The notes beneath the pieces are model-generated. The model had not been told where the DNA came from. It ran no database searches and was given only the letters and a program-made list of their open reading frames with translations. Shown piece by piece: positions 5,574 through 20,269 of a DNA stretch of 20,269 nucleotides. The DNA is taken from the IMG/VR virus record IMGVR_UViG_3300045970_001353, positions 1 to 20,269 of that record; one strand, given 5' to 3'. Both the position numbers and the translations under genes were made by a program. This stretch comes from a virus. Within the stretch, counting starts at the first letter, position 1, and each line of letters starts with the position of its first letter.

Positions 5574-6052
5574 GTTCCTTGCCATACCCACCTGGTGCCG
5601 CGCGTGCCATTGCCAATGCCCGCTCTGGCGGACTAAAACCATCTGAAGCTGTGATGGTGGTTCTGGCTGGACAACATGACTGGTCCAACCCGCAGGTGTT
5701 TGTAGATCCCGCCAAGGAATACCGGTGGGACTGGTTGCGCGGCTTGAATGTCGTGCTGATGATTGCTGCAAGAACCCGACTTGGCGACATCCTCGCTCAA
5801 ATTGACCAGGCATACACCGCACAAATTGATGTCGTCGACTTCGAACGCAGTAAAGCATGGCAGGTAGTGTTCACCAGACCACGCCTGAGAACTGTTCGCT
5901 GGCCACGAGCTTGGGTTGTTGACTGGCTTGGCGAGCGCAGTTGGCATGCTGAGCTAAATCACCACAAGGCCAAAGCCAAAGAAAAAGCTAAGCAGCAGGA
6001 AGCTGCAAAACAAACTGAATCCACTTACGAACTGGAGCCCATATGGAACTGA
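5570..6052 (+). CDS. Hypothetical replication-module protein, 160 aa
   Basis: Start at ATG 5570, in an ATGA overlap with the initiator gene and behind GGGAGGGAG; an in-frame GTG at 5555 is less likely. The sequence has a globular part (residues ~1-125) with an aromatic-rich stretch (EYRWDWLRGLNVVLMIA), a helical segment (LGDILAQIDQAYTAQIDVVD) and VRWPRAWVVDWLGERSW. It then ends with a Lys/Ala/Glu/Gln-rich helical tail (~132-152, HHKAKAKEKAKQQEAAKQ). No Walker motif is present, so it is not a classical DnaC-type loader. Position between initiator and helicase suggests an accessory replication role. Family not recognised. Confidence 0.7.
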   Translation: MSSLPYPPGAARAIANARSGGLKPSEAVMVVLAGQHDWSNPQVFVDPAKEYRWDWLRGLNVVLMIAARTRLGDILAQIDQAYTAQIDVVDFERSKAWQVVFTRPRLRTVRWPRAWVVDWLGERSWHAELNHHKAKAKEKAKQQEAAKQTESTYELEPIWN

Positions 6053-6987
6053 TCCCAGACGACATCAACCTCACCGATTACATGGACGAGCCCGACTTTC
6101 GGGCCAGTGTTCGCAGTGCATCCTATTTTGCCGACCAAGTAAAAGCTGATCTCGACCTGCATGCCAAGGTGGAAAAGTCGCCTGGCCTGCTCGCACAAAA
6201 AGCGCAGGGCCTGTTGCACTTTCGTCCTGGTGATGTGACGGTGTGGCCCGGGTACAACGGACACAGAAAGTCGATGTTCACCAGTCAGGTGATGATTGAC
6301 CTGGCTGTACAAGGCGAGAAGGTCCTGATCGTCAGCCTTGAGATGATGCCCTGGCGCACCATGTCCCGGATGACCCGTCAGGCTTGTGGCATGGCAAATC
6401 CAATGCCCCAGCTCATAGACCGATTCCACAACTGGACGGACGGCAAGCTTTGGCTGTTTGACCATGTCGGCCGCATCGCACCGAGTAAGGCACTTGCCCT
6501 GTTTCGGTACTTCGCAGACGTGCATAAAGGCACCCATGTATTGCTCGACTCATGGATGATGGTTTGCTCCAGCGAAGAGAACCTCGACGAGCAAAAGCAG
6601 TTCAGCACCGACTTGTGCCGGCTGGCGCAGGAGGCCGGGTTGCATGTGCACGTTGTTGCCCACTGCCGCAAACCTAGTGACCAGAAGGGCGACCGAAATA
6701 TGCCCACCCGTTATGACATTCGCGGTTCTGGTGCCATCAGTGATCAGGCGGCCAATGTAATCACGGTTTGGATGAATAAGGACAAGTTCTCCAAGTTGGA
6801 CCAGAACCCCAATGACATGGAAGCCTTGAATTTGCCATGTGCAGTGATCAAGTGCGACAAGCAGCGCAACGGTGCGTGGGAAGGAAGCCTTAAGTTCTGG
6901 CTGGATCCTGCCAGCCTGCGCTTCTGCGAAGACCGCACATCACCAGTTCAGCCATACGCCTTCATGACGCGTGGGCTTCATGATTGA
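6043..6987 (+). CDS. DnaB-type replicative helicase, RecA-fold domain only, 314 aa
   Basis: A RecA-like ATPase resembling the C-terminal domain of DnaB and phage helicases. Visible motifs: Walker A GYNGHRKS (residues 70-77); the acidic residue in LIVSLEMM (E100) typical of DnaB motif 1a; Walker B THVLLD (164-169); VHVVAHCRKP (202-211) and RGSGAISDQAANVI (227-240), which match the DnaB motif H4 region. Only about 60 residues precede Walker A, so the DnaB N-terminal/primase domain is missing, and a host primase would be needed. Walker A has Arg where most DnaB proteins have Gly before the Lys. Overlaps the preceding gene by 10 nt and the SSB-like gene by 8 nt. It would unwind phage DNA after loading by the initiator. 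Confidence 0.85.
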   Translation: MELIPDDINLTDYMDEPDFRASVRSASYFADQVKADLDLHAKVEKSPGLLAQKAQGLLHFRPGDVTVWPGYNGHRKSMFTSQVMIDLAVQGEKVLIVSLEMMPWRTMSRMTRQACGMANPMPQLIDRFHNWTDGKLWLFDHVGRIAPSKALALFRYFADVHKGTHVLLDSWMMVCSSEENLDEQKQFSTDLCRLAQEAGLHVHVVAHCRKPSDQKGDRNMPTRYDIRGSGAISDQAANVITVWMNKDKFSKLDQNPNDMEALNLPCAVIKCDKQRNGAWEGSLKFWLDPASLRFCEDRTSPVQPYAFMTRGLHD

Positions 6988-7366
6988 CGCACTACTCTCG
7001 GGCAAGCTGCAGGGCCTGGCCGAACAGCGCATTGGCAACAGCGGAAAGCCCTTCACCATTGCCAAGGTCCGGGCGGCAGGCAGTGATGGCGAAAGCCTGT
7101 TCGTGAACGTAATCGCATTTTCAGCCACCGCAGGCGCCGCGCTGATGGCCCTGGCGGATGGTGATTCGCTGGCGCTATCCGGCAGCCTGAAGGTGAAGGT
7201 CTGGACCGACCGCAATGGTGTTGCAAAGCCCTCGCTGGACATGGTCGCCAGCCAAGTGTTAAGCGCTTACCACGTGAGCCGCAAACGCAAGGAAATTGCA
7301 GCGCAAACATCAAGTCGCGCGCCAGGTGAGGACTTCCCCGGCGAACATGATCCGATAGATTTTTAA
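6980..7366 (+). CDS. Single-stranded DNA-binding protein-like (OB fold), 128 aa
   Basis: Start at ATG 6980, overlapping the helicase stop by 8 nt (ATGATTGA); an in-frame GTG at 6971 is an alternative. Residues ~5-100 have the strand pattern of a phage SSB: GKPFTIAKVRAA, ESLFVNVIAFSATAG, a helix (ALMALADGDSLALSGSLKVK), then VWTDRNGVAKPSLDMVA. The tail (102-128) is charged and ends EHDPIDF, resembling the acidic, Phe-ending C-terminal tip that SSB proteins use to bind replication partners. Position directly after the helicase fits coating of unwound DNA. The call is by pattern rather than a diagnostic motif. Confidence 0.78.
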   Translation: MIDALLSGKLQGLAEQRIGNSGKPFTIAKVRAAGSDGESLFVNVIAFSATAGAALMALADGDSLALSGSLKVKVWTDRNGVAKPSLDMVASQVLSAYHVSRKRKEIAAQTSSRAPGEDFPGEHDPIDF

Positions 7367-7379
7367 GGAGACGCAAAAG

Positions 7380-7892
7380 ATGGAATGGATATCGTTGTCA
7401 GAGGTGAAGGATGAGCCGGGAGTTGAAAGCATGCGCGCTGACTACTGGCGTGTTCTGGCTGAAACCGGAACCACTGTTGAAATGGTGCGGACTCGCGTCC
7501 TCAATCCAGACACGCAGATCCCCATGCCGCCGGGGTTTGAATTTCTGGAGGTGCGCCCGTCGCCCATCGAGGGGATGGGACTGTTCACCACGAAAGCCAT
7601 TGCGCAGGGTGAAGTCATCGGCCCTGCAGTGATTGCTGGCAGACGCACGCCGCTTGGTCGCTACGCGAATCATTCACCGTGTCCGAACACCGCTTTTCGT
7701 GTTCTTCCGAATGGCGATTCAGTCTCATTTGCCCTGAGGGACATTCCGGCACATCACGAGGTGCTGAACAACTACAGGCAGGGCGCGCATCTTTGCGGCT
7801 CACATTTCGAACCGGTGGAGATTGCGAAGACATTGGAATTACGGGCTCAGACGTTGTCGCTGGGCTCTGATACCCACGAATTTATAGCTTGA
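7380..7892 (+). CDS. SET-domain protein (putative protein-lysine methyltransferase), 170 aa
   Basis: Residues ~56-135 carry the SET signature: EVRPSPIEGMGLFTTKAIAQ then GE (the S-x-x-x-G-x-G-L/V-F-x-x-x-x-I-x-x-GE opening), GRYANHSPCPNTAF (93-106, the R/F-x-x-NHS-x-x-PN pseudoknot motif that helps bind S-adenosylmethionine), and ALRDIPAHHEVLNNY (118-132), corresponding to the usual al-x-dI-x-x-GEEL-x-x-x-Y strand with the catalytic Tyr. The insert between the two halves is very short, as in viral minimal SET enzymes. The first ~50 residues are a separate helical piece; the tail has a CGSHF segment. RBS TAAGGAG lies 9 nt before the ATG. It sits between replication and virion genes. Substrate unknown: a virion, replication or host protein are all possible. 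Confidence 0.8.
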   Translation: MEWISLSEVKDEPGVESMRADYWRVLAETGTTVEMVRTRVLNPDTQIPMPPGFEFLEVRPSPIEGMGLFTTKAIAQGEVIGPAVIAGRRTPLGRYANHSPCPNTAFRVLPNGDSVSFALRDIPAHHEVLNNYRQGAHLCGSHFEPVEIAKTLELRAQTLSLGSDTHEFIA

Positions 7893-7908: not shown

Positions 7909-8109
7909 ATGGACACTTCATCCCAACTGATCTCGATAGTTAACCACTGTCGCATGCCTCGTGGGCTGTTCAGGAATTTGTCACCGGCGACGCATACGCG
8001 ATCGCACCGACGGTCCCAGCCCACATTGATCCACTGGCTTGCCGATAGCGTGTTTGGAAGTCGCACAGTCCTAGCCCCCTGGCATGTGGGAGGTACTGCT
8101 TGTGAATGA
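7909..8109 (+). CDS. Doubtful 66-aa ORF with phage-style spacing
   Basis: Begins at ATG 7909 behind TAAGGATGCCGAAAAG, a leader 17/21 identical (counting through ATGGA) to the one before the SET gene, which supports real translation initiation. Its TGA overlaps the GTG start of the cupin-like gene by 8 nt (GTGAATGA), the same overlap length seen elsewhere in the window. The protein is basic and Ser/His/Arg-rich in the middle (PATHTRSHRRSQPTLIHWLA) with no recognisable domain. It may be a genuine small protein, a leader peptide for coupling, or chance. Confidence 0.45.
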   Translation: MDTSSQLISIVNHCRMPRGLFRNLSPATHTRSHRRSQPTLIHWLADSVFGSRTVLAPWHVGGTACE

Positions 8110-8554
8110 CATCACCACAATTCACGGTGCAATTCTGAAGATGCAAGATGGCGCGTCACGCGAACAGATTTTGCAACTGCAAGAGTTGATGCAAGCAGAG
8201 TTCACCAAGCCATGGGAACAAGATTTTCCTGTGGAGCATGTATTTGCTCCGGGTCTATACGCAAGGCAAATGACGATCCCCGCAGGCGGGGTAATCATCG
8301 GAAAGATTCACCGCCACGCGCACGTCAACACCGTCTCAAAAGGCCGGGTGTGGGTGGTAACAGAGTTTGGCAAAGAAGAGATCGTCGCTCCGGTCACGTT
8401 TGTGTCTCAACCAGGTACGAAGCGTGTGGTGGTCGCCCAAGAGGAGACCGTCTGGACGACATATCACCCAACGGAAGAAACCGACCTTGCACGGATCGAG
8501 GAATACGTAATTGCGCCAACTTATGAGGCGCTAGAAATGGGGATGATTAAATGA
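8102..8554 (+). CDS. Cupin-like phage protein, 150 aa
   Basis: Start at GTG 8102, with GGGAGG 8 nt upstream; an ATG at 8084 in frame lies upstream of that site. Residues ~44-140 look like a single-domain cupin: HVFAPGLYARQMTIPAGGVI, then GKIHRHAHVNTVSKGRVWVV with the metal-binding-like HRHAH (70-74) and the conserved Gly, then APVTFVSQPGTKRVVVAQEE and a later WTTYHPT with a His (122) where the second cupin motif contributes its ligand. The first ~40 residues are a helix. Cupin-fold proteins occur in tailed-phage late regions, where a structural role is often assumed. Enzymatic function is not established. Its stop overlaps the next ATG (ATGA). Confidence 0.72.
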   Translation: MNDITTIHGAILKMQDGASREQILQLQELMQAEFTKPWEQDFPVEHVFAPGLYARQMTIPAGGVIIGKIHRHAHVNTVSKGRVWVVTEFGKEEIVAPVTFVSQPGTKRVVVAQEETVWTTYHPTEETDLARIEEYVIAPTYEALEMGMIK

Positions 8555-9249
8555 CATGGGGAATGGTAGCCGTAGCAGGCGCAACGCTGGTAGGCGGTGC
8601 AATGCAATCAAATGCTGCTAGCGACGCAGCAGGTACTCAAGCCGCATCAACAGCAGCTAGCATCGCTGAGCAGCGCCGCCAGTACGATCTGACGCGCAGC
8701 GATTACACGCCATATCGTGAGGCCGGTGTAAAGGCGCTGGGCCAGCTCCAGACCGATATCAACGGCGCGCCCACTGCCGCCGAAGTGATGAGCGACCCTG
8801 GCTATCAGTTCGGTCTGTCCCAAGGCCAGCAAGCCATTGACCGAAAGACGGCAGCAGCTGGTGGGCGCGTGTCTGGTGCGGCTCTGAAGGCTGCAGCACA
8901 GTACGGCACAGATTACGCTACCACCGGGTACAACTCAGCATGGCAACGTCGCGGGGATCGTTTGAATCGTCTTGCAACGCTCGCTGGCGTTGGACAAACC
9001 TCAACCGGAGCCAGTGCGGCGGCTGGCGCTGCGACTGCTGGCGCGAATTCCAATCTGATCAGCGCCCAAGGCAATGCGGCCGGATCGGCGCAGCTTGCGC
9101 AAGGGAACATCTGGGGTAACACCGTCAATCAGCTTGGTGCTGTTGGCCAGAAGTGGGCAAATACTCCAACGTCAACGTCAACTGGAACGAACCAATTTGG
9201 TTGGGTCAATCAGCCAGCCGGGGCATCCTTCGATATCAACGCCTTCTAA
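8551..9249 (+). CDS. DNA-ejection (injection) protein, P22 gp7-like, 232 aa
   Basis: An Ala/Gly/Gln/Ser-rich protein with a hydrophobic N-terminus (MTWGMVAVAGATLVGGAMQS) followed by AASDAAGTQAASTAASIAEQ, then RRQYDLTRSDYTPYREAGVK and ALGQL. This layout is characteristic of gp7-type DNA transfer proteins of short-tailed phages: a glycine-rich hydrophobic leader, an AAxxAA-Q helix, and the QYDxTRxDxxPYRxAGxxAL segment, followed by DPGYQFGLSQGQQAIDR and AAQYGTDYATTGYNSAWQRR. Such proteins are carried in the virion and released into the cell envelope during DNA entry. ATGA overlap with the cupin-like gene. First of three successive ejection-type genes. Confidence 0.85.
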   Translation: MTWGMVAVAGATLVGGAMQSNAASDAAGTQAASTAASIAEQRRQYDLTRSDYTPYREAGVKALGQLQTDINGAPTAAEVMSDPGYQFGLSQGQQAIDRKTAAAGGRVSGAALKAAAQYGTDYATTGYNSAWQRRGDRLNRLATLAGVGQTSTGASAAAGAATAGANSNLISAQGNAAGSAQLAQGNIWGNTVNQLGAVGQKWANTPTSTSTGTNQFGWVNQPAGASFDINAF

Positions 9250-9257
9250 GGAAAATC

Positions 9258-10655
9258 ATGGCAGCAGAAAATATATTTTCCCAATACCTGCATCCGGTTC
9301 GTTCGGTGCAGGATTACACCAACGACATGGACAGAAATGAGCAAAACGCGCTCACACTGGCCGCATCACGATTGACAAACCAGACGGGACAGCAAACCTT
9401 CGCGGATACCCAAAAGGCCCGGCAGTTGGCACAAGAAAACGCAGCCAGAGGTGGGGATATGAATGCTCTGGCAAAAGCATATCTATCGAGTGGACTGACT
9501 TCACAGGCCCAGGCCCTGCAGAAGCAGGAGCTCGAGTTTGACGAGAAGCGCTCAACCATCTCGAAGAATCAGTTCGATCTGGAGCAGAAGAAGCGCGTCA
9601 CTGCCGCAACGCACATGGCGAGTTTCCAAACCCCTCAGGATGCAATTGCAGATATTCAGGCTCGGGTCCAGTCGGGTGAAATGAGTCATGAGCAGGCTGC
9701 AGTACTTTCGCAGCGAATTCCGCAAGACCCCGCTGCGTTCTCCCAGTGGCAAGTCAGCCACATGCGCGAATTTCTGACGCCCAAAGAGCGCATCGATATG
9801 GTGACAGCCAAGCCGATCGAGGTGACCACTGGCCAACAAAAGTACTCGGTTGACCAGAACCCGAATAGCCCAACCTTTGGCAAGCAGATTGGCGCGGCAC
9901 CAGTTCAGATGGTGGCTACACCAGGTGAGGTGCTCACTGACCTGCGGACTCGTTCAGAGGGCGCTGCCAATCGCGGTGTTCAGATCCGTGGCCAGAACAT
10001 GACCGACATACGCTCCCGCGAATCCACAGCGGCCACATTCAGCAAGCCGTTTGAAGCAACGGGGCCTGATGGCACGCCCATCCTGGTGCAACAGGACAAG
10101 CAAGGCAATATCATTCCGGTAAAAGGCTACTCGCCCAAGGTTGGTGCTGGTGGTGCGCTGACAGAATCCCAAGGCAATGCGACCAACTTTGCAGCCCGCA
10201 TGAAATCAGCGTCTGAAATCTTGATTCCCCTGGAAGACGAGGGTGTCACAGCCGGAAATATTGGAACGATGGCGGCCGGCAGCGCATGGACCAACTTCAT
10301 GGCGACTCCTGAAGGCAGGCGATACAACCAGGCGGCGAAAAATTGGGTATCCGCAAATCTTCGCAAAGAATCAGGCGCAGCGATTCCTGAGTCTGAAATG
10401 GTACAGGAGATCAAGAAGTATTTCGGGGTTCCTGGTGATGACAAGACGACACTGGATCAGAAGCGACAAGCAAGGTCCGTGGCAGAAGAGGGAATGATGG
10501 TGCAGGCTGGACCAGGGGCCAAGACAGTTCCAACGACCCTTAACAAGACAAGGACGGGTGCGGCACCAAATTCCGTTCAAACGCCAGATGGGAAGACACA
10601 CACCTTTCCCACTGCTGCTGCCGCAGCAGCTTTTAGGAAGGCGGCAGGACTATGA
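9258..10655 (+). CDS. Putative DNA-ejection/internal virion protein, 465 aa
   Basis: Start at ATG 9258, with AAGGA 5 nt upstream; the frame is open from a GTG at 9153, but that would run through the end of the previous gene. The sequence is hydrophilic, rich in Gln/Ala/Lys, with a long predicted coiled-coil segment (~residues 35-125, for example QKARQLAQENAARGGDMNAL and ELEFDEKRSTISKNQFDLEQ). The middle part is low in hydrophobic residues, and the tail ends in an Ala-rich stretch (FPTAAAAAAFRKAAGL). Position between gp7-like and the large protein parallels gp20 in P22-type phages. The role is inferred from position and composition, not from a named domain. Confidence 0.7.
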   Translation: MAAENIFSQYLHPVRSVQDYTNDMDRNEQNALTLAASRLTNQTGQQTFADTQKARQLAQENAARGGDMNALAKAYLSSGLTSQAQALQKQELEFDEKRSTISKNQFDLEQKKRVTAATHMASFQTPQDAIADIQARVQSGEMSHEQAAVLSQRIPQDPAAFSQWQVSHMREFLTPKERIDMVTAKPIEVTTGQQKYSVDQNPNSPTFGKQIGAAPVQMVATPGEVLTDLRTRSEGAANRGVQIRGQNMTDIRSRESTAATFSKPFEATGPDGTPILVQQDKQGNIIPVKGYSPKVGAGGALTESQGNATNFAARMKSASEILIPLEDEGVTAGNIGTMAAGSAWTNFMATPEGRRYNQAAKNWVSANLRKESGAAIPESEMVQEIKKYFGVPGDDKTTLDQKRQARSVAEEGMMVQAGPGAKTVPTTLNKTRTGAAPNSVQTPDGKTHTFPTAAAAAAFRKAAGL

Positions 10656-12685
10656 CCGACTACTCCGCACTTGCAAAGAAATACGGCGGCACTACTGAAG
10701 CACCAACTGTGGATTACACAGCATTGGCAAAGCAGTTCGGCGGGCAGACTGCGTCAGCAGAAGCCAATCCAGTGAACAAGGACTACCAAGCCGGTGCCAA
10801 TGCCCCCGGCGCGCTGCGCGGCCTGCTGTCCGTCGCCAACGGCCCGACCATGGGCTTCGGTGACGAGATCATGGGCGGCGTTGGTGGTTTGTACGACACG
10901 GTAGTGAAGGGCGGCAACCTGTCCGACAACTACAAGGCAAACCGAGACTATGTGCGCGGTGCCCAGGACGTTGAAGCCCAGACAAACCCAATCGTCACCG
11001 CGCTGACCCAGACCGCCGCGTCCGCACCGCTGTTGGTTTACAACGGCGTGGGTGCATTGGGTGCCAAGATTGCCCCACGCATCGCCGAAAGCTCGAACCT
11101 GTTCATGCGCATGCTCAAGGCTGGCAGCACCGGGGCGGCCTATGGCACGGTGCAGGGCGCTGGAAATTCAACTGCCGAGGATGCCGGTGGCGTGCTCAAG
11201 GATGCTGCAGTGTCTGGTGTGGCAAGTGGTGCATTGGGATCCGCAGCTGTACCAGTGGCCAGTGTCATTGGTGCTGCTGGCCGTAATGTTGCCCAGCGCG
11301 TCTCCACATCATCCGCTGCCGACTATGCACGTGAGAAAGTGGCCGAATCCCTGGCGCGTGATGCCCGCGGTAATGTAGTGCAGTCGGGAGCCAGCAACTC
11401 AATCCAGCAGGCTGCAGCCCGCTTTACCAAATTGGGAGATGAAGCGACCGTAGCCGATGCAGCTGGGCGCAACACCAATCAACTGTTGGACACCCTCGCC
11501 ACACTGCCCGGAAAGACCAAGGATTCAGCCGAGCAGCTGATCCACTCCCGCCAGGCCGGGCGCGCCGGGCGTCTGATTGCATCCGCCGAAGAAAACCTGG
11601 GCACACAGGGCCAGCGCCTGTCTCCGCATCTTGACCGTTGGGCTGCTGACCGCGCGACGGCTTCTGCACCGATCTACAACCAATTGCGCCAGATCAACGT
11701 GCAGCCCTCCAACGACCTGCGCAGCGTCGTGCAGGCGGCCGACGACCTGGGTGCGTTGGGTGAGGCCCGCAAGATGGCCACGGCCAACCAACAGCGCTTT
11801 GGCCTGGATCCGGCCTATCCACAGGCATGGAACATGGGCGACCTGGACCATGTGAAGCAAGGCCTTGATCAGCTCATCGCTAAACAGTGGAACGCGGCAG
11901 AAGGCAAGCTCACTCCATTGGGTGCCAGTTACCAGGGTCTGAAGAACCGCCTGACCACCGAACTGGACAGCGCGACCACCGATCCGAAAACAGGTGCATC
12001 GGTCTACAAGGCCGCGCGCGACGCTTATGCCGGTCCGTCGGCCATCATCGATGCTGCACAGCAGGGCCGCTTGGCACTGTCCAAGGATGGGTCTGCAATC
12101 TCCAACTTGACGTCTGACCTGTCCGACTCTGAAATGCAGGCCTTCCGCCTGGGTGCATTCGAGAGCCTGCGCAACAAGCTGGGCAAAGAAGGTGGCCAGA
12201 CTGAGATTCTGAAAATGTGGAAAGAGCCGGCTACCCGCGAGAAGCTGCAGGCTGTATTCGGTGATGAAACCGCATTCCGCCAGTTCTCAGCCGATGTTGC
12301 CAAGGAAGCGCGACTCAAATCCTTGGAGTCGGTTGGTCGCGGATCGCAGACAGCAGCGCGCCAGTACGGCGCCGGTGATCTGGACATGAGCGCACTGACA
12401 GATGCTGGCGGGGCTGTGGCGGCCGCCAAGACTGGTAACGCTCTGAGTGCGCTAGGTTCTGCGAAAAGTGCCTGGAACCGTGTGGCAACACCACAGCTGG
12501 TTCGCGACCAGATGGGCGAGATTCTCCTGTCCAAGGGTGCAGAGGGACGCCAGAACATCAACGCTTTGACGGCTGCGGCCCAAAACATCAGCCGACGCAA
12601 CGCCAACGTCAACCGTGGCTCCGGCCTAGCCGGATCGCTGATCGGTAGCCGCCTCGCAACCCCAATCCCGGTGTCACAGCGGTAG
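10652..12685 (+). CDS. Large DNA-ejection/internal virion protein, 677 aa
   Basis: Starts in an ATGA overlap with the previous gene. The N-terminus has a duplicated motif, DYSALAKKYGG (3-13) and DYTALAKQFGG (20-30), a sign common in phage ejection proteins of this size. Residues ~55-85 (GPTMGFGDEIMGGVGGLYDT) match the G-F-x-DEI-x-x-G pattern found near the start of large ejection proteins. Several hydrophobic/Gly-Ala stretches follow (~140-215), including AVSGVASGALGSAAVPVASV, which could insert in membranes during DNA entry. The remainder is helical and Ala-rich. No transglycosylase or peptidase motif was seen. It occupies the gp16-like third place of the ejection set. Confidence 0.75.
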   Translation: MTDYSALAKKYGGTTEAPTVDYTALAKQFGGQTASAEANPVNKDYQAGANAPGALRGLLSVANGPTMGFGDEIMGGVGGLYDTVVKGGNLSDNYKANRDYVRGAQDVEAQTNPIVTALTQTAASAPLLVYNGVGALGAKIAPRIAESSNLFMRMLKAGSTGAAYGTVQGAGNSTAEDAGGVLKDAAVSGVASGALGSAAVPVASVIGAAGRNVAQRVSTSSAADYAREKVAESLARDARGNVVQSGASNSIQQAAARFTKLGDEATVADAAGRNTNQLLDTLATLPGKTKDSAEQLIHSRQAGRAGRLIASAEENLGTQGQRLSPHLDRWAADRATASAPIYNQLRQINVQPSNDLRSVVQAADDLGALGEARKMATANQQRFGLDPAYPQAWNMGDLDHVKQGLDQLIAKQWNAAEGKLTPLGASYQGLKNRLTTELDSATTDPKTGASVYKAARDAYAGPSAIIDAAQQGRLALSKDGSAISNLTSDLSDSEMQAFRLGAFESLRNKLGKEGGQTEILKMWKEPATREKLQAVFGDETAFRQFSADVAKEARLKSLESVGRGSQTAARQYGAGDLDMSALTDAGGAVAAAKTGNALSALGSAKSAWNRVATPQLVRDQMGEILLSKGAEGRQNINALTAAAQNISRRNANVNRGSGLAGSLIGSRLATPIPVSQR

Positions 12686-13387: not shown

Positions 13388-13423
13388 TTTTTCCTGCGCC
13401 GTACCATCACCTCAATATTGAAT

Positions 13424-13942
13424 ATGGCACTCACTGATAGACAAGAGAAGTTCGCAAGAGCGATTGCCGAGGGTAATACGCAGGCCGATGCGTACCGATC
13501 AGCCTACAGCGCCTCCAAGATGAAGGACGAGACCATCTGGAACAGCGCCTACAAGATCATGCAAAAAGGCGAGGTGGCGGCGAGGGTGAAGGCGATCAGG
13601 GATGACTTGGCCGCGCGAATCACCGAGAAGACCAGCATCGACAAGGCCTGGGTCATGGTCAAGCTCGTGAAGGTCGTTGAGATGGGCATGCAGGCAGAGA
13701 TTGTCAAAGACGATGACGGCAAAGTCCTTGGCGATGGTGAACCGCAGAACCTGAACGCCGCAAATAGAGCCCTGGAGCTGATCGGCAAAGAGTTCGGCAT
13801 GTTCATTGATCGCAAAGAAATCCGCACAGGCGCACTTGATGGCCTGGAGCACTCCCAATTGAAAGCCATCAATGATGCCATCGAAGCTCTATCAGAACCT
13901 GGCAGCTTTGACGCCACAAGCGCTCTCGGCACTCGGCATTGA
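13424..13942 (+). CDS. Terminase small subunit, 172 aa
   Basis: Residues 3-60 have the Terminase_2-type DNA-binding helix-turn-helix: LTDRQEKFARAIAEGNTQAD, AYRSAYSASKMKDETIWNSA, then IMQKGEVAARVKAIRD. The opening LTxxQEKF, the N-x-x-x-AYR-x-AY centre and the VAARV end are classical. The C-terminal half (~70-150) forms the oligomerisation/TerL-contact part with LNAANRALELIGKEFGMF. Small terminases recognise the packaging site and stimulate the large subunit. The ATG at 13424 has no convincing Shine-Dalgarno; a TTG at 13418 is equally poor, so initiation may be weak. The 3' end overlaps the large subunit gene by 71 nt. Confidence 0.85.
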   Translation: MALTDRQEKFARAIAEGNTQADAYRSAYSASKMKDETIWNSAYKIMQKGEVAARVKAIRDDLAARITEKTSIDKAWVMVKLVKVVEMGMQAEIVKDDDGKVLGDGEPQNLNAANRALELIGKEFGMFIDRKEIRTGALDGLEHSQLKAINDAIEALSEPGSFDATSALGTRH

Positions 13943-15344
13943 GGTCAGAGCAAAGCTCGCGGAGGTCAAGCTGTATGACTACCAGGCATACCCAAAGCAA
14001 GCGGACTTCCACGCGGCTGGAAAGACCGCACGTGAGCGTCTACTGATCGCTGGCAATCAGCTTGGCAAGACCTGGAGCATGGGGTTTGAGTCAGCCATGC
14101 ACCTGACCGGACGCTATCCTGACTGGTGGCAAGGCCGGGAATTCGTGAAGTCTGTGGTCGGTTGGGCGGCCGGTGTCACCAGTGAGGCCACGCGTGACAC
14201 CGTGCAGCGGATCATGTGCGGACGGATCAATGCCATTGGCACAGGCTCCATTCCAAAGAATGCGATTAAAGAAAAGTCGATGAAGCGCGGCGTTGCAGAT
14301 GCCATCGACACCATGGTGGTGAAGTTTGGTGGAGGCGGAGACGTGCAGGCCGGTGAAAGCCTGATCGGGTTCAAAAGCTACGACCAAGGCCGTGAGAAGT
14401 TCCAAGGCGAAACGTTGGACTTCTTCTGGGCAGACGAAGAGCCGCCAGAGGACATCTACATGGAAGGTATGACCCGCACCAATGCCACGGGCGGAATTGT
14501 CTGCATGACGTTCACACCGCTGCAGGGTATGTCCACGGTGGTGAAGCGCTTCTTGATCGATAAACCTTTTGGCACGCACGTCACGACGATGACCATCAAC
14601 GATGCCGAGCACTACACAGAAGAGCAGCGCAAAGCCATCATTGCCAGCTATCCAGCCCATGAGCGTGACGCTCGGACAAAAGGTGTCCCTTCCCTTGGCT
14701 CAGGCCGTATCTTTGCCATTGACGAGGAAACCATCAAGGTTCCCCAGTTCGAGATCCCGGCGCACTGGGTGCAGCTCGGCGGCTTGGACTTTGGATGGGG
14801 TCACCCGAGCGCCGCCAGCCGGATTGCTTGGGATCGTGACGAGGATGTGATCTACGTCACCGCCGTTCACCGGCAGCGGGAGCAAACGCCCCTGATGTTC
14901 GCAGGCAGCATCAGGCCTTGGGGTGACTGGCTGCCGTGGGCGTGGCCACATGATGGCCTGCAGCATGACAAGGGCTCTGGCGAGGCGCTGGCCAATCAGT
15001 ACAAAGCGCAGGGCCTGCTGACGCTCAAGGACAAGGCCACCCATCCACCCAAGCAAGGGGAAGACGAGGGCACAGGGGGCAATAGCGTTGAGGCTGGCAT
15101 CATGGAAATGCTGGACCGCATGCAGACTGGGCGATTCAAGGTTTTTTCACATTTGAACGACTGGTTTGAGGAGTTCCGCATGTACCACCGCAAGGATGGA
15201 AAGATCGTGAAATTGGATGATGACTTGATTTCTGCGACCCGGTACGCCTACATGATGCGGCGCTTTGCGGTGGTGAAGGGTGGGGCCAAAAAGAAGCAGT
15301 ACGACTACAGCCAGTCAGCTGCTCAGGGCGTGACGATCTATTAG
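13872..15344 (+). CDS. Terminase large subunit (packaging ATPase-nuclease), 490 aa
   Basis: Motor and nuclease that packages phage DNA. ATPase motifs: Walker A IAGNQLGKT (59-67), Walker B LDFFWADEEP (182-191) with catalytic Glu, and a motif III-like TFTPLQGM (213-220). Nuclease-type acidic residues: GGLDFGWGHPSA (303-314), WPHDG (358-362) and LDDDLISATRYAYMM (449-461). Length is normal for the family. Start assigned to ATG 13872 (with ATG 13875 adjacent); this implies a 71-nt overlap with TerS, and an in-frame TTG at 13908 is an alternative. The usual next gene, portal, is absent: a truncated Gp49-family fragment follows directly after the stop. Confidence 0.9.
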   Translation: MMPSKLYQNLAALTPQALSALGIEVRAKLAEVKLYDYQAYPKQADFHAAGKTARERLLIAGNQLGKTWSMGFESAMHLTGRYPDWWQGREFVKSVVGWAAGVTSEATRDTVQRIMCGRINAIGTGSIPKNAIKEKSMKRGVADAIDTMVVKFGGGGDVQAGESLIGFKSYDQGREKFQGETLDFFWADEEPPEDIYMEGMTRTNATGGIVCMTFTPLQGMSTVVKRFLIDKPFGTHVTTMTINDAEHYTEEQRKAIIASYPAHERDARTKGVPSLGSGRIFAIDEETIKVPQFEIPAHWVQLGGLDFGWGHPSAASRIAWDRDEDVIYVTAVHRQREQTPLMFAGSIRPWGDWLPWAWPHDGLQHDKGSGEALANQYKAQGLLTLKDKATHPPKQGEDEGTGGNSVEAGIMEMLDRMQTGRFKVFSHLNDWFEEFRMYHRKDGKIVKLDDDLISATRYAYMMRRFAVVKGGAKKKQYDYSQSAAQGVTIY

Positions 15345-15527: not shown

Positions 15528-16160
15528 TTAATGGTGCAGTTTTATCGGGTCGATAAGGTCAGGACCATCGATCCAGCCCATGCCGTCGCCGACTGGATTT
15601 GAGGATGCCAAGCCAAGCAGCAACTCATTCCTTTCGATGGCTCGTTTGCTCTCAAGTTTCTGCTTTGTTCTTTGGGCACGGATCTGCTGCTCCCAATGGT
15701 TGGCAAGCAAATAAGCATAAATTGCTCCAGCAACTGAAACACTTGTGCCAATCACCATCCAATGCCAGACCGGCCCAATCAACTGATTAGAAACTGTTGG
15801 AATCGATGACACCAAAGCCATCAGACCTGCAAAAGCAGCCCAATAGGATGATCGTGTGCGGTGTTCGCTCACCATTTCAGCAAGCTTTTGATACTCTTTT
15901 GATGACATCTGATCGGTGTCAAAAGCATCTGAAAGTCGATCACGCATTGCCCAAACAACGGTCGCACACATCATGCAGAATGGCGTAGCCATACCTGCCA
16001 CCCAAGACAGAACTTTAGCGCTGGTTACGAAATGCCACAGCAACTCACCACATCCACCGGAAAACAAAACCAGAACTGGCAATGTGATGACGCGCGGAAC
16101 TCCTAGCCAAGTCGTTAGCTGGCTGACAACTCGTCCGATGTAACTTTGCTTAGAAGCCAT
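15528..16160 (-). CDS. Four-transmembrane protein, candidate RexB-like effector, 210 aa
   Basis: Start ATG at 16160, with GAGGGA 8 nt upstream. Four hydrophobic segments are visible: ~21-45 (VITLPVLVLFSGGCGELLWH), ~48-70 (KVLSWVAGMATPFCMMCATV), ~107-127 (YWAAFAGLMALVSSIPTV) and ~130-153 (WMVIGTSVSVAGAIYAYLLA). A charged loop lies between segments 2 and 3, and a long charged tail follows segment 4 (HWEQQIRAQRTKQKLESKRA), probably cytoplasmic. It overlaps the end of the upstream 349-aa gene by 46 nt, so the two are coupled. A soluble protein plus a small four-helix membrane protein in a prophage accessory site recalls lambda RexA-RexB, where RexB depolarises the membrane; sequence homology to RexB is not evident, so this is a structural analogy. 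KwaA of the Kiwa system is another four-helix comparison. Confidence 0.75.
   Translation of the reverse strand: MASKQSYIGRVVSQLTTWLGVPRVITLPVLVLFSGGCGELLWHFVTSAKVLSWVAGMATPFCMMCATVVWAMRDRLSDAFDTDQMSSKEYQKLAEMVSEHRTRSSYWAAFAGLMALVSSIPTVSNQLIGPVWHWMVIGTSVSVAGAIYAYLLANHWEQQIRAQRTKQKLESKRAIERNELLLGLASSNPVGDGMGWIDGPDLIDPIKLHH
16115..16160 (-). other. 46-nt coding overlap coupling the two cassette genes
   Basis: The start of the membrane-protein gene lies inside the last 46 nt of the 349-aa gene, in another frame, with its ribosome-binding site (GAGGGA) also inside that gene. This is much longer than the 1-11 nt overlaps typical of the early array and implies fixed-ratio expression of the pair. 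Confidence 0.8.
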
Positions 16161-17164
16161 TGGCGCATTCCCTCAAAAACTTCTGTTGCACTTAATTGGC
16201 CATCATACGATGTAACCCTTACTATGCCATTCAGTTTCAAATCTGCCCCTCTGATCTGGCCTCCATCCTTTAGTTCAAGAACTGTTTCAACGTCCTCAGT
16301 ATTACGAAATGCTGCACCAAGTGTGTCCATGAGTTTTTGACCGTCTTCAGTGGTTTCCTTTTTATAGCGAAGAACCACGCTCATTTCAATATTAGACCCT
16401 GTCAATTGATCAAAATTTATCTTTGCTGCCTGACTTGGTGCCATGAGTTTCTTCAGTGCTTCAAGCACGCCCCAGTCTTCCTGTGTGGCTGAGGCAACTA
16501 CTGACAAACTATGTGATTTCATGGTGCTGACCGGGGACGCTTTTTCATTAGCTTCCGCTGGCGGTTGAAAACGTGCCATTGCCGACTGGGGGATCACTTC
16601 ACCGCCGAGGGAGATCGTACGCACACCGGAGCCGCTTGCCATTTTTTCCCTGACAGCTTTTGACGGGGTATCTACCAATTGAAACGTGTTGTCACCCGCA
16701 AGCACTTTGGCATCATGCAAAAACCACTGTAGATAGGCCTCCAACTGTGGCGCTTTGAGGGCCTGTGACTGTATCAAAACCAGATGGTCCTGAATGGCCC
16801 CGAAATACATCATCGACTCAAGAAACTCGCGGCGTTTTCCATCTTGGGTGTTAGGTGCTTTCAGTTTTTCGATCATGACGTCCAAAGCTTGCTCATCATC
16901 CACCAGGAACAATGGATCAGTGCCTGGCGTGTATGTCATCAGTGCACCAAAAACAAATCCTTTCGGCTCACACAGCGGTGCACCCATCACGTGATAAATC
17001 GGGTTGTCCACATCCGCCACATTGAGACGCCTTTGCCCAACGGTCGTACTTTTACTCAGCGCCTTTTCCAAGAGTGTCTTGAGTGACTCGCCGGGGACGC
17101 TGACATGGAAGTTGCACCGCTTGTAAATCACCGTCTTTTGAATGCGCTTTGCCTTGGTCGTCAT
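16115..17164 (-). CDS. Soluble protein, candidate RexA-like sensor, 349 aa
   Basis: Start ATG at 17164, with AGGAAGT 7 nt upstream. No signal peptide or membrane segment. By reading: an N-terminal domain (~1-150) with strands and helices (KTVIYKRCNFHVSV, GFVFGALMTYTPG, MMYFGAIQDHLVLIQSQALK, LEAYLQWFL); a linker (~190-215); and a C-terminal domain (~217-342) with SLSVVASATQED, a helix, IEMSVVLRYKKE, a helix, DVETVLELKDGG, LNGIVRVTSYDG and a last helix. The sensor-like N domain reporting 'F/Y-x-G-I-x-D' strands, and a C domain with L-x-x-x-x-IxMxVxLRYKKE resembling RexA's DIVIKPKFKRD strand, give a loose match to lambda RexA (279 aa). I would not assert homology without a profile search. Operon position directly before a four-helix membrane protein supports a two-part exclusion system. 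Confidence 0.75.
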   Translation of the reverse strand: MTTKAKRIQKTVIYKRCNFHVSVPGESLKTLLEKALSKSTTVGQRRLNVADVDNPIYHVMGAPLCEPKGFVFGALMTYTPGTDPLFLVDDEQALDVMIEKLKAPNTQDGKRREFLESMMYFGAIQDHLVLIQSQALKAPQLEAYLQWFLHDAKVLAGDNTFQLVDTPSKAVREKMASGSGVRTISLGGEVIPQSAMARFQPPAEANEKASPVSTMKSHSLSVVASATQEDWGVLEALKKLMAPSQAAKINFDQLTGSNIEMSVVLRYKKETTEDGQKLMDTLGAAFRNTEDVETVLELKDGGQIRGADLKLNGIVRVTSYDGQLSATEVFEGMRQWLLSKVTSDELSAS

Positions 17165-18817: not shown

Positions 18818-20269
18818 TTAGCTAATCGCCTGACGTGATCGCGCCTTCGGCTTCGTTTGCAGCTCAATAACTTCCGCGCTTGGCTTCAGTCCACCAGCCA
18901 CAAACATGGCGTTGCTGGCGCTACCCACTGCGGCATTGATGGGGTCGCGGTCGATCATGGCGTAAATCGCCGTCGCTTCAGGGGACTTGTGATTCAGGAC
19001 CTTGCCAATCAAAAGCAGCGATGCTCCACCACGCGCCAACCAACTGCCCAATGTGCGGCGAAGGTCGTGAAAGATCAGGTTTTCGACCTTGGTCGCCATC
19101 AGCAACTGTTTGAACGGCTTGGCGATAGAAATGATATGACCCGACTCACTGAGCTCTGATGGGAAGACGAAATCGGAGGTTGCTGTCTTGTGGCGCTCTT
19201 TCAGGATCTCCATGATTTCCGGAATCAGGTGGGTGACGTGTTGCTCGTTGTTTTTGGTGAGGTTGCCTGGAATAGTCCATTCGCCGTTCACTAGGTCAAT
19301 GTGTGACCACTGCATGCCGAACACATTCGCGCGCCGTTGGCCAGTGAAGATTGCCACGGAGATCGCGTCCCGCACGGTATGGTTGGTCATTTCGCCCAGC
19401 GCCTGGAAGAACGGGCCAAGTTCATTTGGCTTGAGGAAGCGGGTACGCGAATACTCTTGAAAGCGTTTGATCTTCCTGGTTGGGTTCTTTCCATTGAAGT
19501 ACTCGCGGGAGTCATCGATGCCGAAATTGAAAATGGCTCGCAAAAGCTCAAGGACGCGGTTGGCATTGGTATGCCCTGTAATTTCCTTTTTCGGCTTGAC
19601 GCTCTCCGGCTTTGGGCGGGGTGCTGGTCCATGTTTGCGAATCTGACGACGTTCTTCCTTTTCGTGGGCAATGCGGGCCAGATTTGCTTTTACTGCTGCT
19701 GCTCGCTCGTTGTGCTGCTTCACGATCTGAGTTGGCAGGTTGGCATGCCACTTTTCGACATCAACCTTCTTGATCTCGCTCAGGCGCTTGTTTCCCCATT
19801 TCGGCTCCAGGTAGTTCCCATAGAGTTGTTGGATGGCCTCGTGCGTCTTGGTCTGGGAAATGTGCGAGTCGTACTCTTTCCACAAGTCATTGAGGGTCCA
19901 TTCCTCGCGCCTGGTGCGGTCTTCTACCGTAACGCTGTCGCCGCTAGCCTGGTGCCCCGATAGCCTCTTGGCGGCATTGCGGGCTTCTGCGGCCTTCACC
20001 ACGGGGTGTTTTCCAAGCGTCTTGCGTTCAGTACGCCCGCTTCCCTTTGGACGCCCAACGTACGAAAATGTCTTGACACCCTGGCGGGTTATCCGGAGGT
20101 ACAAGCCGTTGACCTTGCTGTCCTTGTATTCGACGCGGTTTACATCTACCGGCAGAGGGATCTTTTTGATCTCGTCTTCTGTGAAGTCGATAACCTTTGC
20201 AGCGGTTCTGGGCTTTTTACCTTCCGGCGGTGGGGCAATGGGGTGCGGTCTGAGGTTCGAATCCGTCAT
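18818..20269 (-). CDS. int: Tyrosine-recombinase integrase, 483 aa
   Basis: Site-specific recombinase for insertion and excision of the prophage. Order: Arm-type DNA-binding N domain (~45-103, VNGLYLRITRQGVKTFSYVG and AEARNAAKRL); core-binding domain (~123-250); catalytic domain (~275-445). Catalytic residues visible: R312 in TGQRR, K339 in LTKNNEQH, H401-x-x-R404 in FHDLRRTLGSWLARGG, H427 in LNHKSPEATAIYAM and nucleophile Y436. The core-binding domain contains an unusual basic, proline-rich insert (~185-230, for example EKEERRQIRKHGPAPRPK). The reading frame starts at the window end, so the true start could lie beyond it; no internal ATG/GTG/TTG near the N-terminus is a good alternative. The first codons coincide with the tRNA T-loop-like sequence on the other strand. 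Confidence 0.92.
   Translation of the reverse strand: MTDSNLRPHPIAPPPEGKKPRTAAKVIDFTEDEIKKIPLPVDVNRVEYKDSKVNGLYLRITRQGVKTFSYVGRPKGSGRTERKTLGKHPVVKAAEARNAAKRLSGHQASGDSVTVEDRTRREEWTLNDLWKEYDSHISQTKTHEAIQQLYGNYLEPKWGNKRLSEIKKVDVEKWHANLPTQIVKQHNERAAAVKANLARIAHEKEERRQIRKHGPAPRPKPESVKPKKEITGHTNANRVLELLRAIFNFGIDDSREYFNGKNPTRKIKRFQEYSRTRFLKPNELGPFFQALGEMTNHTVRDAISVAIFTGQRRANVFGMQWSHIDLVNGEWTIPGNLTKNNEQHVTHLIPEIMEILKERHKTATSDFVFPSELSESGHIISIAKPFKQLLMATKVENLIFHDLRRTLGSWLARGGASLLLIGKVLNHKSPEATAIYAMIDRDPINAAVGSASNAMFVAGGLKPSAEVIELQTKPKARSRQAIS
20254..20269 (+). other. Attachment-site signature: tRNA T-loop-like sequence
   Basis: GGTTCGAATCC (20254-20264) is the classical sequence of a tRNA T-arm loop. 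It lies inside the start of the integrase gene on the opposite strand, where it encodes the DSNLRP segment. Upstream of it (+ strand) is integrase sequence rather than a tRNA 5' half, so this is the copy of a tRNA 3' end that a phage carries in its attachment core. That places the prophage to the left and the chromosome to the right. The acceptor end lies outside the window, so tRNA identity and core length cannot be read. Confidence 0.6.

Follow-up and report, generated by a model that had tools for sequence, protein, structure and literature searches.

To our knowledge, SET enzymes have been studied almost only in eukaryotic chromatin and among bacterial effectors. The SET-I insert of SET lysine methyltransferases is part of the substrate groove; it is variable in size and not strictly required. 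One viral member of the superfamily, vSET, has a host target. For phages, SET has already been named in database entries, and the protein family PHROG 34170 exists without an assigned function. Searches of the open-licence literature found no study that deals with SET proteins of tailed phages or with methylated lysines in phage virions. The genomic slot that is of importance here is occupied in P22 by gene 14, between the needle gene 26 and the ejection gene 7, and in T7 by gene 13, between the tail gene 12 and the internal virion gene 14. P22 gp7 and T7 gp14 are counterparts and represent the first ejection proteins (PMC8954989), and procapsid assembly is the stage at which the P22 ejection proteins enter (PMC4992974).

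The window, i.e., the whole stretch of 20,269 nucleotides that was analysed, stems from the virus record IMGVR_UViG_3300045970_001353. It contains an ORF of 170 codons on the plus strand (7380..7892), which starts with ATG, 13 nt after the gene for a single-strand binding protein (SSB), and is preceded by a Shine-Dalgarno-like AAGGAG (7365..7370, plus strand, read from the sequence) at a distance of 9 nt. Its identity as a SET-domain protein is close to certain, based on Pfam, the C-terminal part of PHROG 34170, an AlphaFold2 model and structural alignments with VIA-align. The Pfam SET profile PF00856 matches with 36.2 bits (E 8.7e-9), above the curated cut-off of 22.4 bits, in a match that spans only positions 61-104 of the 105 profile positions, and a search of the whole record with the SET profile found no second match. 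PHROG 34170 matches with its C-terminal part (positions 156-260, E 4.4e-24). A search of solved structures with the single sequence gave weak SET matches (best E 0.18), and a profile of 73 relatives matched MLL1 (E 2.9e-12), vSET (2.6e-7) and EZH2 (about 6e-8).

Three motifs characterize the SET core, all encoded on the plus strand, namely, the GxG motif of the SET-N/SAM site (G65-M66-G67, 7572..7580), which continues to F69 as G65-M-G-L-F69, the SAM-binding segment R89-T-x-x-G-R-Y-x-N-H-S-x-x-P-N103 (7644..7688, assigned by conservation), from which the SET-I insert is absent and which includes N97-H-S-P-C-P-N103, and the SET-C motif E127-V-L-N-N-Y132 with the catalytic-type tyrosine (7758..7775). 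An N-terminal helical segment (residues 14-47, 7419..7520, plus strand) is also found in fused relatives, just ahead of the SET core, and D21, G30 and D45 in it are nearly invariant. The AlphaFold2 model, based on 68 sequences, has a mean pLDDT of 83, and values of 93-98 in the SET core. With VIA-align it superposes on EZH2 (Z 10.5, 2.6 A, 92 residues), the SET domain of MLL1 (Z 10.4, 1.6 A, 80 residues), SMYD2 (Z 9.1, 1.2 A, 75 residues) and vSET (Z 9.1, 2.5 A, 82 residues), and SETD8 also aligns. From these superpositions, the C-terminal segment is expected to be threaded as in the SET pseudoknot. Residues 49-133 of the model, 85 amino acids, correspond to 123 residues of MLL1, and residues 51-132, 82 amino acids, to 105 residues of vSET. 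The missing stretch is situated between GLF and GRYANH, which is the place of SET-I in other members; by these alignment lengths, the SET-I insert is absent from the ORF, and the modelled protein is a SET core that is smaller than vSET. A shared SET fold does not by itself show enzyme activity.

Nine residues (S61, G65, G67, R89, T90, N97, H98, E127, Y132) do not vary among the 80 distinct relatives, 79 of which also have N103. The relatives were fetched with two sequence patterns, RTxxGRYxN and E...DY, which both cover part of the conserved positions. E127 and Y132 are invariant in the 9 relatives that were found only by the first pattern, N97, H98 and N103 are invariant in the 25 found only by the second, and G65 and G67 lie outside both patterns. 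Therefore, the conservation of the active site is not merely an artefact of fetching. A first-pass annotation, made from the letters of the window, had proposed a minimal SET-domain methyltransferase-like protein with the ordered motifs GMGLF, NHSPCPN and NNY and a very short insert, and all these points are borne out by the motif positions, the profile match and the alignment lengths. It had named the profile search and the structure prediction as suitable checks, and loss of the fold or of the SAM-binding residues in relatives as contrary evidence; the single profile match above the cut-off, the predicted SET fold and the residue counts all agree with its proposal.

The gene has a partner that the same annotation had missed: the cupin half is encoded by the next recognisable gene (8084..8554, plus strand), and almost all relatives are fused cupin-SET proteins. 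This cupin (RmlC-like) ORF matches PHROG 12032, PHROG 24280 and the N-terminal part of PHROG 34170 (positions 25-141, E 3.3e-20). Its true start may be the GTG at 8102, which is preceded by GGGAGG at a distance of 8 nt. A small ORF of 66 amino acids between the two (7909..8109, plus strand) belongs to no family and is shared only by a near-identical sister contig. About 475 stretches in IMG/VR were matched by PHROG 34170, and hundreds of short-tailed phages contain the domain. According to their translations, the phage relatives are single proteins of about 250-340 amino acids with an N-terminal cupin and a C-terminal SET domain. The fused relative closest to the window (L008) has 59% identity in the SET domain and 54% in the cupin. 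Its predicted structure (mean pLDDT 90.9) comprises a cupin at residues 32-129, which matches RmlC-like cupins at Z values of about 10, and a SET domain at residues 173-273. The ORF at 7380-7892 is thus the detached SET half of a family that normally consists of one protein. Both halves of PHROG 34170 are present in the window, on two ORFs and with SET first instead of on one cupin-first polypeptide.

Among 91 loci with SET, 86 encode cupin-SET and one SET-cupin, and four are without a visible fusion. The latter are the window itself, L088, with cupin and SET on neighbouring ORFs that overlap by 4 nt, L089, where no cupin was found at the locus, and L083, whose locus is cut by the contig end, so that its fusion status is not visible there. 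The natural SET-cupin protein with reversed domain order (L051:6004-6855) still lies directly before a gp7-like gene. The survival of the pair through fusion, order swap and fission argues for a joint action of cupin and SET. A cupin without SET also occurs (L095-L098, L102, L135 and others). These cupin-only phages use the same slot, and SET is therefore an optional supplement to the cupin, a proposed assembly factor.

The family as a whole has not kept the canonical metal ligands of cupins (HxH...E, H). H67 alone is nearly invariant (45/50), and positions 63 and 65 are His in 12/50 and 8/50, respectively; the cupin protein of the window itself carries HxHxH. A metal-dependent cupin enzyme, e.g., a demethylase paired with SET, was therefore rejected for the family, with the HxHxH of the window member as a reservation. 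Many phage records list cupins of this family under the name 'short tail fiber protein' or 'tail fiber adhesin' (hits H15, H21, H25 and others). This name was not adopted, because the cupin-like fold and the place before the ejection genes do not support it.

A gene for a first ejection protein (P22 gp7-like, by profile) follows directly in 75 of the 83 fused loci that have more than 600 bp downstream. Most often the two genes overlap or are separated by no more than 2 nt, and the most common distances from the fused gene are -4 nt (26 loci), +1 (15), -13 (15) and -16 (7). In the other eight loci the next protein is not matched by the gp7 profile, and several of them have a gp7-like N-terminus (MS..I.A.V..G). 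A gp10-like head-closure gene is present within 5 kb upstream in 44 of the 57 loci with enough sequence. In the window, three ejection-type genes follow on the plus strand. The first (8551..9249) encodes a gp7-like DNA ejection protein (PHROG 598 'DNA ejection', E 5e-30), and its first 4 nt are at the same time the last 4 of the cupin ORF. The second, in the gp20 position (9153..10655), matches in phmmer the gene at the same place of Rhodoferax phage P26218; its listed GTG start overlaps the gp7-like gene, and the true start is probably further in. The third (10652..12685) is assigned to the gp16 position by its place and matches PHROG 5880 (E 1.1e-34, function unknown). In a T7-like Sphaerotilus phage the slot is filled by the cupin alone; tail tubular B lies on one side, and on the other an unnamed gene that is followed by the two annotated internal virion proteins.

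The first-pass annotation had placed the SET gene between SSB and virion genes, which is correct for the window, whereas the place next to replication genes is an exception among the relatives. The survey of gene neighbours that it had suggested identified the first ejection-protein gene, and not a replication gene, as the conserved neighbour. Its question whether a replication, virion or host protein is modified can be narrowed, as the surroundings of the gene favour virion assembly over replication. In one further phage (Phage zth2-2, L007:6682-7170) a GNAT acetyltransferase (PF00583, 27.5 bits) is encoded shortly downstream of cupin-SET, as a possible second protein-modifying enzyme in the same operon. 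The idea that the slot generally holds protein-modifying transferases was set aside and not used as evidence. T7 gp13 and P22 gp14 look GNAT-like by eye, but profile-profile comparison at a Neff of 1-2.7 gave no support; searches of the PDB gave no match for T7 gp13 and only weak matches for P22 gp14, none of them to a GNAT.

We propose, with about even chances of being right, that the SET protein is a SAM-dependent lysine methyltransferase whose targets during virion assembly are the ejection proteins or their partners; catalysis, substrate, timing and what the cupin does are inferred here. As a member of the SET superfamily that is reduced to the catalytic core, the product of the SET ORF would use SAM to methylate lysines of proteins. 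It would cooperate with the downstream-encoded cupin like the two halves of cupin-SET in related short-tailed phages, and the pair would be co-produced with the ejection proteins and be active in virion assembly. The cupin would form oligomers that bind or chaperone the gp7-like first ejection protein or its partners, and SET would methylate one or more lysines there, before or during entry into the procapsid. The most likely substrate would be the ejection protein from the adjacent gene. In other SET enzymes the peptide groove is shaped by SET-I; as this segment is lost here, the conserved N-terminal helices together with the cupin would probably hold the substrate. Many phages lack SET in the same slot, and thus SET is not essential to ejection generally. 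No conserved lysine in gp7-like proteins is linked to SET, as the common lysine column is occupied in 66% of the SET-carrying versus 83% of the cupin-only cases (six cupin-only sequences), and this weakens the view that ejection proteins are the substrate.

The operon position amounts to guilt by association, and a gene in a late operon could act on a host protein. An active SET methyltransferase might thus have a target in the host, e.g., in the envelope, translation, chromatin or defence, and its place in the virion operon would reflect nothing but late expression. The conserved catalytic residues would be expected here as well, vSET is related in profile and fold and exemplifies a viral SET with a host target, and L088 keeps an intact cupin-SET pair at a locus where no gp7-like gene was detected, which counts against ejection proteins as substrates. 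However, the cupin fusion and the near-fixed overlap with gp7-like genes in very different phages exceed what late expression needs, and a host target is therefore regarded as unlikely.

We consider it quite unlikely that the SET domain is a structural beta-clip module, binding SAM or nothing, that takes part in the assembly of tail, neck or ejection proteins without any methylation. The missing SET-I would be in line with such a module, as would the annotation of relatives of the attached cupin as short tail fibre or structural proteins and the variable HxH positions, which make the cupin half look non-catalytic. Against it stands the near-complete conservation of precisely the SAM-site and catalytic residues. 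The mean column identity across the family is only about 35%, and these residues have therefore been selectively retained. Judged from the alignment, the retention of GxG, NH....N and E....Y is as expected for a working SAM enzyme.

The remaining genes characterize the element in which the SET ORF resides. Pfam matches identify a DnaB-type helicase (6043-6987), the SSB (6971-7366) and, together with PHROGs, the small (13418-13942) and large (13872-15344) subunits of the terminase, all on the plus strand, and a tyrosine integrase on the minus strand (18818..20269, PF00589 and PF13356). Between terminase and integrase a protein of 349 amino acids is encoded on the minus strand (16115-17164), which belongs to the widespread family PHROG 3482 (E 8e-49). 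An excisionase-like HTH protein and a replication initiator are also present. Three small early ORFs (414-701, 1867-2166 and 2129-2470) are mutual paralogues (phmmer E 1e-6 to 1e-9). No match to a P22-type portal, coat or gp10 head-closure gene was found in the 20,269 bases of the window, a record that is possibly trimmed, and the term tailed phage, which the first-pass annotation had used, is therefore not established for it. Among long contigs, the nearest relatives by terminase are L102 and L135; both are of the ordinary P22-like type, with the order TerL, portal, coat, gp10, cupin alone, gp7-like and gp20-like. In the window the ejection genes precede TerS-TerL, and thus a simple deletion does not explain its order.

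Over 15.3 kb, from position 1 up to the TerL stop at 15344, the sister contig (L181, 17,015 bases) has 98.7% identity and the same arrangement; beyond that point it is unrelated apart from a short 80% stretch. The TerL end at 15344 is a recombination junction between the two, and a further relative (contig L101) has the terminase end together with a different integrase. Both records begin at an identical ATG, as would be expected if they had been trimmed at a gene boundary, and capsid genes might therefore still lie beyond the record. A satellite and a defective prophage are both conceivable for the element, and its gene content is compatible with a PICI-like satellite. The locus L089 comes from a draft Comamonadaceae genome in which Terminase_6 and a P22-type portal were not detected, and has integrase, primase, helicase, SET and three ejection-type genes; it was not accepted as proof of a complete capsid-less element, because the contig stops before the second attachment site. 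In a Paraburkholderia ferrariae element (L088:9201-10648) the overlapping cupin and SET ORFs have an integrase nearby and no detected ejection gene. The host genomes of these two loci (G001 of L089, G002 of L088) each contain two or three further full-length SET genes, which score 69-93 bits with Pfam, far above the phage-type gene. In the tree, the window and L008 are grouped with a support of 100/99 and are joined with L088 and L089 at 99/76; the join of L088 with L089 is subject to a long-branch warning. The non-fused members are thus found in or near one corner of the family. They come from integrase-bearing elements, in which the SET or cupin gene lies just after replication genes.

That the SET of the window is a leftover of a broken prophage, which was cut from its cupin by rearrangement and lost its function whatever the family does elsewhere, is likewise quite improbable. 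The split and reordered arrangement compared to most relatives, the undetected portal, coat and head-closure genes and the presence of N131 instead of the usual D131 (D in 73/80 relatives) speak for it. Against it stand the SET ORF, which is intact, is preceded by a Shine-Dalgarno-like site and has kept every invariant residue, the intact and closely packed ORFs for cupin, gp7-like, gp20-like, gp16-like and terminase proteins, the sister contig with the same arrangement, and the occurrence of N131 in other members as well (7/80).

Returning to methylation during virion assembly, a wider version is tentative and rather unlikely, namely, that cupin-SET is a dedicated maturation system for the lysine methylation of injected proteins during assembly, which operates in many short-tailed phages and also in a capsid-less element with its own copy, ejection proteins and terminase. 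A SET core without SET-I that is paired with a cupin and located at the ejection-protein slot is not described in the searchable open-licence literature. The family is widespread in phages, has kept the active-site residues while the groove insert is gone, and is tied to the DNA-injection machinery by fusion and gene order. The substrate question is narrowed to a few candidates, i.e., the gp7-like, gp20-like and gp16-like proteins and the cupin itself, which can be checked with existing isolates, e.g., Rhodoferax phage P26218 and Pseudoalteromonas phage PH1. If the proposal is true, it would represent a protein-methylation step in virion assembly, of which no published example was found in the open-licence literature.

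Proteins of the same kind are present in databases under automatic names, e.g., A0A6J5PTS6 ('SET domain containing protein [uncultured Caudovirales phage]') and GenBank UOF81456.1 ('pbcV-1 histone H3-lys 27 methyltransferase structure'). P22 gene 14 (DUF2824) and T7 gene 13 (Phage_T7_Gp13) share the place, as the last gene before the first ejection-protein gene, and no sequence similarity to their products was detected. The catalytic cores of MLL1, EZH2, SETD8 and SMYD2 superpose closely on the model and have the NHxxxxN and E....Y motifs in common with it; unlike them, the SET protein of the window is devoid of an insert of SET-I size and stems from a bacterial virus context, and no pre- or post-SET zinc modules were recognised in its 170 amino acids. 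vSET (A612L of chlorovirus PBCV-1, PDB 1n3j and 3kma) is likewise a stand-alone viral SET protein with a common core fold and about 23% identity, but has about 23 more residues in the aligned stretch and no cupin partner, and its virus infects a eukaryotic alga. The members of PHROG 34170, such as Rhodoferax phage P26218_30, whose annotation refers to similarity with a putative tail fiber protein, have the same SET half and the same cupin half, the latter encoded here by a neighbouring ORF. In these phages one protein with the cupin first is encoded downstream of head-closure, whereas the window has two ORFs with SET first downstream of SSB, and in both Rhodoferax phage P26218 and the window the gp7-like ejection gene adjoins.
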